Shown here piece after piece: positions 5,527-8,406 of a stretch of DNA of 64,000 nt. The stretch covers positions 727,001 to 791,000 of the forward strand of contig NZ_JAGKTL010000001.1 in the NCBI RefSeq assembly GCF_017908595.1, in the 5' to 3' direction. Position 1 is the first letter of the stretch, and each line of letters begins with the position of its first letter. The position numbers and the translations under genes were made by a program. Source of the DNA: Rhodothermus bifroesti (GTDB lineage Bacteria; Bacteroidota; Rhodothermia; Rhodothermales; Rhodothermaceae). The notes beneath the pieces were generated by a model. The model saw only the letters and a list, made by a program, of their open reading frames with translations. It searched no databases and had not been told where the DNA came from.

Positions 5527-6174
5527 ATGACCGTTCAGCGCTTTACGTTCAATCCTTTTCAGACGAACTGCTACGTATGTCACGATGCGGGTGAGGCCGT
5601 GCTCGTCGATCCTTCATGCCATACGCCTGCTGAGTGCCAGGCTGTGGTCGATTATCTAGAGCGTAACGGGCTGCGCTTACGGCATCTTTTACTGACCCAC
5701 GGGCATATCGACCACATTTTTGGCTGCCGCTTTTTTAGCACGTATGCGGGGATGGGTTTTGGGATGCATCGGGCAGATGTTCCTTTTTTAGAGGAAGCGG
5801 AAGCCCAGGGCCGCTTTTTTGGTGTGCCGATAGAGCCGCCACCCCTGCCCGCGTATTACTTGGACGAAGGCGATTCGATTTCGTTTGGTCATACCACCTG
5901 GCAGGTGTTGCATACGCCGGGGCACTCGCCGGGATCGCTGAGCTTTTACGATGCAGCGCATGGTCTAGTGATTGTAGGTGATGTATTGTTTTTGGACTCC
6001 ATTGGCCGCACCGATTTGCCAGGGGGGAGCCTGCCAGAGCTTATGCAGTCGATTTTCCAGAAGCTGTTGCCTTTAGAGGATACCACCCGGGTGTATCCGG
6101 GGCATGGGCCGGATACCACAATTGGCCGGGAGCGTCGGCACAATCCATTTCTAACCGGTGCTTTTCCGTTGTAA
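5527..6174 (+). CDS. MBL-fold hydrolase, glyoxalase II-like
   Basis: This 215-aa cytosolic metallo-beta-lactamase-fold hydrolase has the binuclear metal motif LTHGHIDHIFG (around residues 57-67), then HTPGHSPGSLSFYD, VGDVLFLDSIGRTDLPGG and VYPGHGPDTTIGRERRHNPFL. It matches the short YcbL/glyoxalase II-like group. Members hydrolyse thioesters such as hydroxyacyl-thiols; substrate identity within the group is poorly predicted. A bacillithiol gene (bshA) lies nearby on the other strand, so a bacillithiol thioester is an attractive but unproven substrate. The N-terminus TVQRFTFNPFQTNCYV is typical and supports the ATG. The gene runs tail-to-tail toward the kinase-like gene with a 6-bp gap. Confidence 0.9.
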   Translation: MTVQRFTFNPFQTNCYVCHDAGEAVLVDPSCHTPAECQAVVDYLERNGLRLRHLLLTHGHIDHIFGCRFFSTYAGMGFGMHRADVPFLEEAEAQGRFFGVPIEPPPLPAYYLDEGDSISFGHTTWQVLHTPGHSPGSLSFYDAAHGLVIVGDVLFLDSIGRTDLPGGSLPELMQSIFQKLLPLEDTTRVYPGHGPDTTIGRERRHNPFLTGAFPL

Positions 6175-6180
6175 GCAGCC

Positions 6181-7254
6181 TTAAAGCCCTGTTGCCGCGC
6201 GCAGGTAAAAGGCGATAGCGGCTGGGCGGCTGCGTTCATATACGACTTGCGTGGAGCAGGCCACCAGTTCTCCCATGGTGAGACAGCGCTCAAAGCGCAT
6301 GTCGCCGTAGTGCGCTGCCAGTTGCGCGCCAAGCTGGCGCACGTGCGTTTCGGGCGCGATGAGATCCTCTTGCATCACTTCCATTAATGCCTGAAAGCGG
6401 CCGTGTGAAACCCGCATACGGTTGGCAATCAGCGCCCGCTCTTCTTTTTGATACTGCAGGACCGTTTCGTCTGGCAGGTATTCTGCCACCAGGGCTACAA
6501 AGGGTTGATTTTGGGGATAACATTCGGGCAGGTAGACTTCTTTGCGCCAATGATGGCTTTGCTGATCAAAGTCGATAGGCCGCATGCGGTAGTGCCATTT
6601 TTCGAGGTCGGGTGTAGCATCGATCACAAAGTTCCCCGCATGCATGTCGCCTAAGAGGCGCACAAAGCAGCGTTCGTTAAATTTGACGAACTCCTTAGCC
6701 AGGCGCACGCGGTCAAAGCGGTTGTCGGGCATGTAGTCCTTGAGGAAATGGTCGCCTGGGATGCCGATGATGTGCTCTTCGATGATCGTGTCGCCCCAGA
6801 CGAAGTAATTGATGCGGTTAGGGGAGAGAATATGCTCTAGCTCCAGGCCGTAGATGCGGTTGGCGTCGACGCGTTTGACGTAGAAGTAGTCGAAGTTATC
6901 GTTCAGGGCGTTGACAATGCGTACGCGAAAGGGTGAAGTATTGCCGTAGAGGCATAAATCAATGCGGTCGATATAGAGGTGATCTGCAATCGACAGGTCT
7001 CCTTCGGCTTTGAGCAGGGCATAGGTTAGGCGTAGACGGTCGTGGATTTCGCGCTGCTCTAATTGCGGATAGAAGACCGTAGCCCAAAGTGTGTCGTTGC
7101 CGCGCTCGTCGTATAGCGTGATTGCGTTGTCGTAGCGCAGCAGGTCGTCGTAACGGATGCCGCCATCGTAGATGCGGCCGTAGCGTTCGAGGTACGCGCG
7201 CAAAATATCGCTGATCGGATAGGCGGGCTTTTTGCGGCTGATCAGGTGGGGCAT
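6181..7254 (-). CDS. uncharacterised protein with kinase-like (PKL) motifs
   Basis: I do not recognise this 357-aa soluble protein as a named family. Residues 202-208 read GDMHAGN and 226-230 read PIDFD. These resemble the catalytic loop (GDxHxxN) and metal-binding D of APH- and ABC1/UbiB-type protein-kinase-like folds, in which the His-containing loop replaces HRD. K127 (YVKRVD) and the acidic pair near 138-140 or 159-160 could be the beta3 Lys and its partner. No glycine-rich loop is obvious. There is no signal peptide or membrane segment. The gene starts 6 bp after the bshA stop on the same strand, so the two are probably co-transcribed. The kinase reading is an inference from short motifs. 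Confidence 0.55.
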   Translation of the reverse strand: MPHLISRKKPAYPISDILRAYLERYGRIYDGGIRYDDLLRYDNAITLYDERGNDTLWATVFYPQLEQREIHDRLRLTYALLKAEGDLSIADHLYIDRIDLCLYGNTSPFRVRIVNALNDNFDYFYVKRVDANRIYGLELEHILSPNRINYFVWGDTIIEEHIIGIPGDHFLKDYMPDNRFDRVRLAKEFVKFNERCFVRLLGDMHAGNFVIDATPDLEKWHYRMRPIDFDQQSHHWRKEVYLPECYPQNQPFVALVAEYLPDETVLQYQKEERALIANRMRVSHGRFQALMEVMQEDLIAPETHVRQLGAQLAAHYGDMRFERCLTMGELVACSTQVVYERSRPAAIAFYLRAATGL

Positions 7255-7260
7255 AACCGC

Positions 7261-8406
7261 TTAAAGCATGCGTGGTGCGGCTTGGGCAAGCACCTGTTCG
7301 TAATAGGCCTCGTAGCGTGGAACGATGCGGCTGGTATCGAATTCTTCGGCGCGGCGACGCGCGGCTTCGCTCATGTGTTGCTGCAGCGCTTCATCGGTCA
7401 GGATGCGCCAAGCGCGATCGGTAAAGGCCTCTACATCTCCCAACGGACACAAGTAGCCTGTTTCGCCCTCTACAATCAGTTCGGGAAGGCCGCCGATATT
7501 GCTGGCTACAACGGGCACACCGCAAGCCATGGCCTCAAGGGCTGCTAAGCCAAAAGTTTCCGAGCCACTGGGCATGAGGAAAAGATCGGCAATGGAGAGG
7601 ATTTCTTCGACCGGTTCTTGCTTGCCCAAAAAGCGCACGTCTTCATAGACGCCCAGCTCACGGGCTAGATGCTCGGCAGGGACGCGGTCGGGGCCGTCGC
7701 CAACAAGCAGTAGCTTTACGGCCAAGCCTGCGGTACGCAGCCGGTGAAACACCCGGACTACATCGGGCGCGCGTTTGACCGGTCGAAAGTTGGATACGTG
7801 TACAATGACCTTTTCCCCATGGGGACACAGCGCCTGCTTGAAGTGGGATTTATTCTGGCGACGGAAACGCCGGGTGTCGACAAAGTTAGGAATGACGGCA
7901 ATGGGGTTCGTAATTTCAAAATGTGCCAGCGTTTCGCGACGTAGGTACTCCGAGACAGCCGTTACCCCGTCGGATTCGTTAATCGAGTAGGTGACCACCG
8001 GGCTAAACGACGGGTCTTGTCCCACAATGGTGATGTCGGTCCCGTGCAGCGTAGTAATCACCGGCACGTAAAGCCCTTGCTTTTCCAAAATCTGGCGGGC
8101 TAGTACGGCACTGGTAGCATGCGGAATGGCATAGTGGACGTGCAGCAAGTCCAGTTTTTCGTACTTTACCACGTCCACCATAGTGCTCGTTAGGGCAAGG
8201 TCGTAGGGCGGATATTCAAACAAGGGATAAGTGTTGACGTGCACTTCATGGAAATAAATGCGCTCAGTAATGTGGCTCAGGCGAAATGGCATGGAATATG
8301 CGATAAAATGGATCTGGTGTCCGCGTGCGGCTAGCGCTTTGCCCAGTTCGGTTGCTACCACGCCGCTGCCGCCATAGACCGGGTAGCACGTGATACCGAT
8401 TTTCAT
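7261..8406 (-). CDS. bshA: N-acetyl-alpha-D-glucosaminyl L-malate synthase BshA
   Basis: BshA joins GlcNAc from UDP-GlcNAc to L-malate, the first step of bacillithiol synthesis. The 381-aa GT-B protein begins MKIGITCYPVYGGSGVVATELG and continues with HFIAYSMPFR, HVHYAIPHATSA and ITTLHGTDITIVGQDPSF, all diagnostic of BshA rather than a generic GT4. The C-terminal donor site has the E-x7-E pattern in GSETFGLAALEAM. Length equals that of the family (about 380). bshB and bshC are not in the window. The next gene downstream, 6 bp away, is the kinase-like protein. Confidence 0.95.
   Translation of the reverse strand: MKIGITCYPVYGGSGVVATELGKALAARGHQIHFIAYSMPFRLSHITERIYFHEVHVNTYPLFEYPPYDLALTSTMVDVVKYEKLDLLHVHYAIPHATSAVLARQILEKQGLYVPVITTLHGTDITIVGQDPSFSPVVTYSINESDGVTAVSEYLRRETLAHFEITNPIAVIPNFVDTRRFRRQNKSHFKQALCPHGEKVIVHVSNFRPVKRAPDVVRVFHRLRTAGLAVKLLLVGDGPDRVPAEHLARELGVYEDVRFLGKQEPVEEILSIADLFLMPSGSETFGLAALEAMACGVPVVASNIGGLPELIVEGETGYLCPLGDVEAFTDRAWRILTDEALQQHMSEAARRRAEEFDTSRIVPRYEAYYEQVLAQAAPRML

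Follow-up and report, generated by a model that had tools for sequence, protein, structure and literature searches.

What does the gene directly behind bshA in Rhodothermus bifroesti encode, and is its product part of bacillithiol synthesis? An earlier note, made from the letters of the sequence, had described a kinase-like protein with APH/UbiB-type motifs and had raised a possible tie to bacillithiol. We analyzed the window, that is, the whole stretch of 64,000 nucleotides that contains the gene, together with the relatives of its product in other genomes. The protein is best read as a member of a new orphan family within the protein-kinase-like (PKL) superfamily, with a core of the PI3K type.

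A conserved gene downstream of bshA

The genes considered here are as follows.

6181..7254, minus strand: kinase-like family protein (P0001), 357 aa, intact 357-codon reading frame with an ATG start
7261..8406, minus strand: bshA (TIGR03999, 577 bits), directly upstream of the kinase-like gene
5527..6174, plus strand: metallo-beta-lactamase-fold (MBL) hydrolase (PF00753), convergent and outside the transcription unit of the kinase-like gene

The earlier note had placed an open reading frame at 6181-7254 without giving a strand; it is intact on the minus strand, and the plus-strand frame of the same interval is interrupted by stops. The upstream gene is bshA beyond doubt, given that the cut-off of TIGR03999 is 273.7 bits. 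As had been noted, the kinase-like gene starts 6 bp after the bshA stop codon (spacer GCGGTT), and the two genes are probably co-transcribed.

Orthologues from the same genus share 89-90% identity with the window protein, those from the wider order 60-71%, and dN/dS of the gene, calculated against same-genus orthologues, is ~0.04, like that of bshA itself. Thus, the gene is real and under strong purifying selection. The same values, together with the invariance of D203, N208 and the DFD motif in 87 sequences, show that the reading frame did not arise by chance.

An orphan family with kinase-like motifs

Neither single-sequence nor profile searches returned a significant match for the protein in Pfam, NCBIfam, PHROGs, PADLOC or PDB sequences, and 39 diverse family members yielded no consistent significant match to any curated family or PDB sequence. 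The impression that the protein matches no family was therefore borne out for these five collections. Open-access literature searches on the kinase-like family, a bshA-linked kinase and bacterial PI3Ks gave no description of the family either. With the PI3_PI4_kinase profile PF00454 there was no match to the window protein (up to E 10) or to the 39 members (up to E 1), and none in genome G000. The sole PF00454 match among 148 related genomes was at L168 (G014:C5:95753-95938), elsewhere than the copy of the kinase-like family in that genome.

The only kinase match in Pfam was ABC1 (PF03109, the UbiB/ABC1/COQ8 family), far under the gathering cut-off (10.9 vs 22.9 bits). Profile-profile comparison with PI3K (a set of only four sequences), UbiB, HipA and APH gave the best score for UbiB (30.7 across 104 columns, with the hinge, the catalytic loop and the metal motif in register), slightly above that for PI3K (23.7); both scores are motif-sized and non-significant, the one for UbiB having an E value of 0.007 in a one-target comparison and a probability of 5.6%. 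HipA scored 17 over only 13 columns and APH 13.9 in the wrong register. The comparison operates at the level of motifs only and does not discriminate between the four groups. APH (PF01636) and HipA_C (PF07804) share generic kinase-like motifs with the family, but had no Pfam match to the window protein or the 39 members.

The predicted fold is closest to PI3K, PI4K and PIKK catalytic domains

AlphaFold modelled the window protein with high confidence (pLDDT 91.5, pTM 0.89, 48 aligned sequences), and the model of an orthologue with 49% identity reached a pLDDT of 89.3; the two have most of their alignment in common and are thus not fully independent. In Foldseek searches the top matches were kinases, with VPS34 among the first (E 8e-5); the TM-scores were low (best 0.38) and the ranking mixed PI3Ks with ordinary protein kinases. 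VIA-align, which re-aligns only the best 1000 Foldseek matches, listed 50 matches for the window protein, all of them PI3K, PI4K or PIKK catalytic domains: VPS34 (7rsj) was the best (Z 14.3, 281 residues, 4.2 A), and PI4KIIIb and ATM had Z 13.2 and Z 13.0. For the orthologue, all 50 matches listed again belonged to these three groups, with VPS34 at Z 13.6 (284 residues, 4.5 A). The rmsd of the structural matches was 4-5 A. UbiB, APH and HipA entries were absent among the 50 matches listed; since PI3K entries are numerous and only the best 1000 were re-aligned, a comparable fit of other kinase-like families is conceivable.

Thus, the models have the two-lobe kinase fold of the PKL superfamily, and within Foldseek's top 1000 the nearest folds for both are those of the PI3K/PI4K/PIKK branch. 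The earlier designation as kinase-like is supported by these models, by their best structural matches being kinases and by the conserved catalytic and metal motifs. Of the two findings that the note had named as speaking against it, neither was made: the predicted fold is protein-kinase-like, and the catalytic and metal motifs are conserved in orthologues (D203, N208 and DFD in 87/87). The more specific likeness to APH and UbiB holds for the short motifs, and a closest kinship with them found no support. An APH- or UbiB-type protein, acting as a small-molecule kinase or ATPase, would fit the pattern GD.H..N...IDFD that is common to those families, the ABC1 match and the leading UbiB score, but with UbiB scores below significance, no APH segment in register and PI3K/PI4K/PIKK domains as the only structural matches listed by VIA-align, we regard this identity as improbable.

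The resemblance to VPS34, PI4KIIIb and ATM (PF00454) comprises a two-lobe fold that aligns along about 280 residues (Z 14.3 for one model and 13.6 for the other), the placement of helix C right behind the lysine strand, a D-x-[HR]-x2-N catalytic loop and an IDF metal motif. In VPS34 and PI4KB (sequences from PDB searches) the K-x2-D-x2-R spacing after beta-3 is identical, whereas mTOR has K-x2-E-x2-R. Unlike these enzymes, the family is bacterial and consists of stand-alone proteins of about 357 aa without C2, helical, FAT or FATC parts; identity is about 10%, the PF00454 profile does not match, and the aligned members have DM[HR]xxN and DFD instead of DRHxxN and DFG.

A precedent for an unrecognised lipid-kinase fold in bacteria is the lanthipeptide dehydratase CylM/LanM: its kinase core is similar to PI3K in structure but not in sequence (PMC4550811). 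The present family differs from LanM in its length of about 357 aa without a cyclase domain, in the lack of a DUF4135 match among the 39 members, and in that no peptide-modification genes occur among the recurrent neighbours typed around the gene.

In a microbial kinome survey, the PI3K/PIKK branch was listed as eukaryotic-specific and as having no sequence similarity to other kinases beyond the key motifs (PMC1821047). A bacterial PI3K-type core, if true, would be informative about how the lipid kinases and PIKKs of eukaryotes arose. Tentatively, the family may even be a true ancient relative of this branch, with a conserved metabolite or lipid headgroup of bacteria as its substrate, although we hold this rather unlikely.

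Invariant residues of the putative active site

Conservation was counted over an alignment of 87 sequences. Twelve residues are invariant (K127, D130, R133, E140, E159, H161, D203, N208, D228, F229, D230 and Q231), and most of them lie in the following elements, all on the minus strand.

6856..6876, minus strand: beta-3 lysine K127 with D130 and R133 (K-x2-D-x2-R)
6772..6780, minus strand: hinge E159-E160-H161, consensus TLIEEHI.GIPGD
6631..6651, minus strand: catalytic loop GDMHAGN, residues 202-208
6559..6576, minus strand: metal motif IDFDQQ, residues 227-232, the DFG equivalent, where the putative activation loop starts

The two motifs of the earlier note are present as described, with PIDFD at residues 226-230. 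Helix C starts at about residue 131 of the model, directly after the K127 strand, and conservation is highest in this helix (129-145), in the catalytic loop and in the metal/activation loop. High conservation continues into the segment after IDFDQQ, as expected for a loop that would, judging by its position, bind a fixed substrate.

The key residues of PKL kinases are K, D, N and D (K72, D166, N171 and D184; PMC1821047). Their counterparts K127, D203, N208 and D228, matched to the PKA positions through the order of the motifs and the secondary structure of the model and not by residue-level superposition, occur in 87/87 sequences. Position 205 is H in 53 of the sequences and R in 34; the equivalent DxH histidine has been proposed to be catalytic in PIKKs and LanM (PMC4550811). 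The two variants at this position are apparently split by lineage.

Taken with the models, this suggests that the protein is likely a soluble, catalytically active phosphotransferase of the PKL superfamily that resides in the cytosol, depends on ATP and has a PI3K/PI4K/PIKK-type core; we infer ATP use, phosphotransfer, the roles of the residues and the cytosolic location. ATP would sit between the two lobes, its alpha and beta phosphates held by K127, which would pair with an acidic helix C residue (E138 or E140). N208 and D228, with D230, would bind Mg2+, and D203 would orient the substrate hydroxyl. The loop after IDFDQQ may then bind one specific substrate, be it a small molecule, a lipid headgroup or a protein.

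Several kinase-fold families have changed chemistry, and the protein might likewise be an ATP-binding pseudokinase or, as SelO-type proteins do, transfer AMP or another group. The Asp in place of the DFG glycine and the Arg in place of the DxH histidine in 34/87 sequences would be compatible with such a non-phosphorylating role. However, the K, D, N and D required for phosphotransfer are all invariant, and pseudokinases normally do not retain these residues, so that we consider this explanation very improbable.

A patchy, probably repeatedly lost accessory gene of Bacteroidota

The family had a match in 61 of 99 related genomes and in 80 of the 296 phylum genomes sampled, 78 of the latter at full length and two as fragments with stops (G323 and G169). 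Searching these 296 genomes with a profile revealed no further clear member. Among GTDB contigs, at least 583 stretches code for a relative. The best 80 of these belong to Rhodothermales, Cytophagales, Saprospiraceae and other Bacteroidota and, outside the phylum, to Plesiocystis and one Nannocystaceae genome (Myxococcota), whose two sequences branch beside the Rhodothermales group. Thus, hundreds of Bacteroidota loci carry a strongly conserved kinase-like enzyme that is unnamed in the curated family libraries searched. Some tractable Bacteroidota are among the carriers, so that the substrate question is directly testable there.

Presence is patchy even within genera (e.g., g3, g67 and g103). 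Broken remnants with in-frame stops (G323:C1:3158094-3158413, G069:C1:2540559-2540969 and G079:C102:11961-12474) suggest recent independent losses. The gene is best read as an accessory gene, mostly present as a single copy, that many Bacteroidota lineages carry in a patchy pattern with repeated losses, and not as a dedicated bacillithiol enzyme. At L086 (G181:C3:105245-106207), a second, divergent copy with 35-37% identity and intact catalytic motifs accompanies the normal one of the same genome. No match to the family was found in viral contigs, phages or plasmids, and nothing therefore marks the gene as mobile.

Adjacency to bshA looks mostly like local synteny

Could the protein nonetheless be a kinase that acts in the bacillithiol pathway or depends on bacillithiol, is transcribed together with bshA and phosphorylates a pathway intermediate, bacillithiol or BshA? 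Besides the 6-bp spacing in the window, this idea draws on the 40 order-level (Rhodothermales) loci sampled for synteny: bshA lies upstream on the same strand in 31 of them, over 8 families and often with a 4 bp overlap. Furthermore, BshA occurs in each of the 78 phylum genomes sampled that carry a full-length copy. However, the MBL-fold gene, which served as a control and cannot share a transcript with the kinase-like gene, lies downstream on the opposite strand in 29 of the same 40 loci, and in family f15 it is still adjacent although bshA is not. Outside Rhodothermales, bshA was adjacent in no locus examined.

BshA is present in 288 of the 296 genomes of the phylum, and co-occurrence with the kinase-like gene (Fisher p 0.12) therefore says little; most bshA carriers lack the kinase-like gene. 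Nor does the family occur only with BshA: in Plesiocystis and the Nannocystaceae genome (2.5 Mb, probably incomplete), no BshA match exceeded the cut-off. Genomic linkage to bsh genes that goes further than local synteny was not found. Because a gene that cannot be co-transcribed is about equally persistent, adjacency is confined to part of one order, BshA is near-universal and two Myxococcota carriers, one of them probably incomplete, lack a BshA above the cut-off, we conclude that the adjacency to bshA is mostly local synteny. The proposed tie to bacillithiol thus stands as an adjacency within part of Rhodothermales, but weakens as a link, and a survey of neighbours elsewhere shows other genes. 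We give a bacillithiol-dedicated kinase a low probability; a role of the gene in the bacillithiol chemistry of Rhodothermales is possible but unsupported.

A link to inositol lipids was looked for and not found: myo-inositol-phosphate synthase was found in 13 of 78 carriers vs 35 of 218 non-carriers, i.e., without association.

No universal operon partner emerged among the loci, and the neighbours are lineage-specific. The kinase-like gene follows PBP2 and RodA in some Cytophagales and a glycosyltransferase in Flammeovirgaceae-type loci. In Cyclobacteriaceae it comes after genes for PCMT, a 4HBT thioesterase, a 196-aa protein without a Pfam match and a DUF3817 protein. This run, whole or in part, was seen in the Cyclobacteriaceae loci L053, L054, L099, L100, L104-L107, L110, L116, L118, L120, L121, L124, L125 and L129, which are mostly of the Algoriphagus type.
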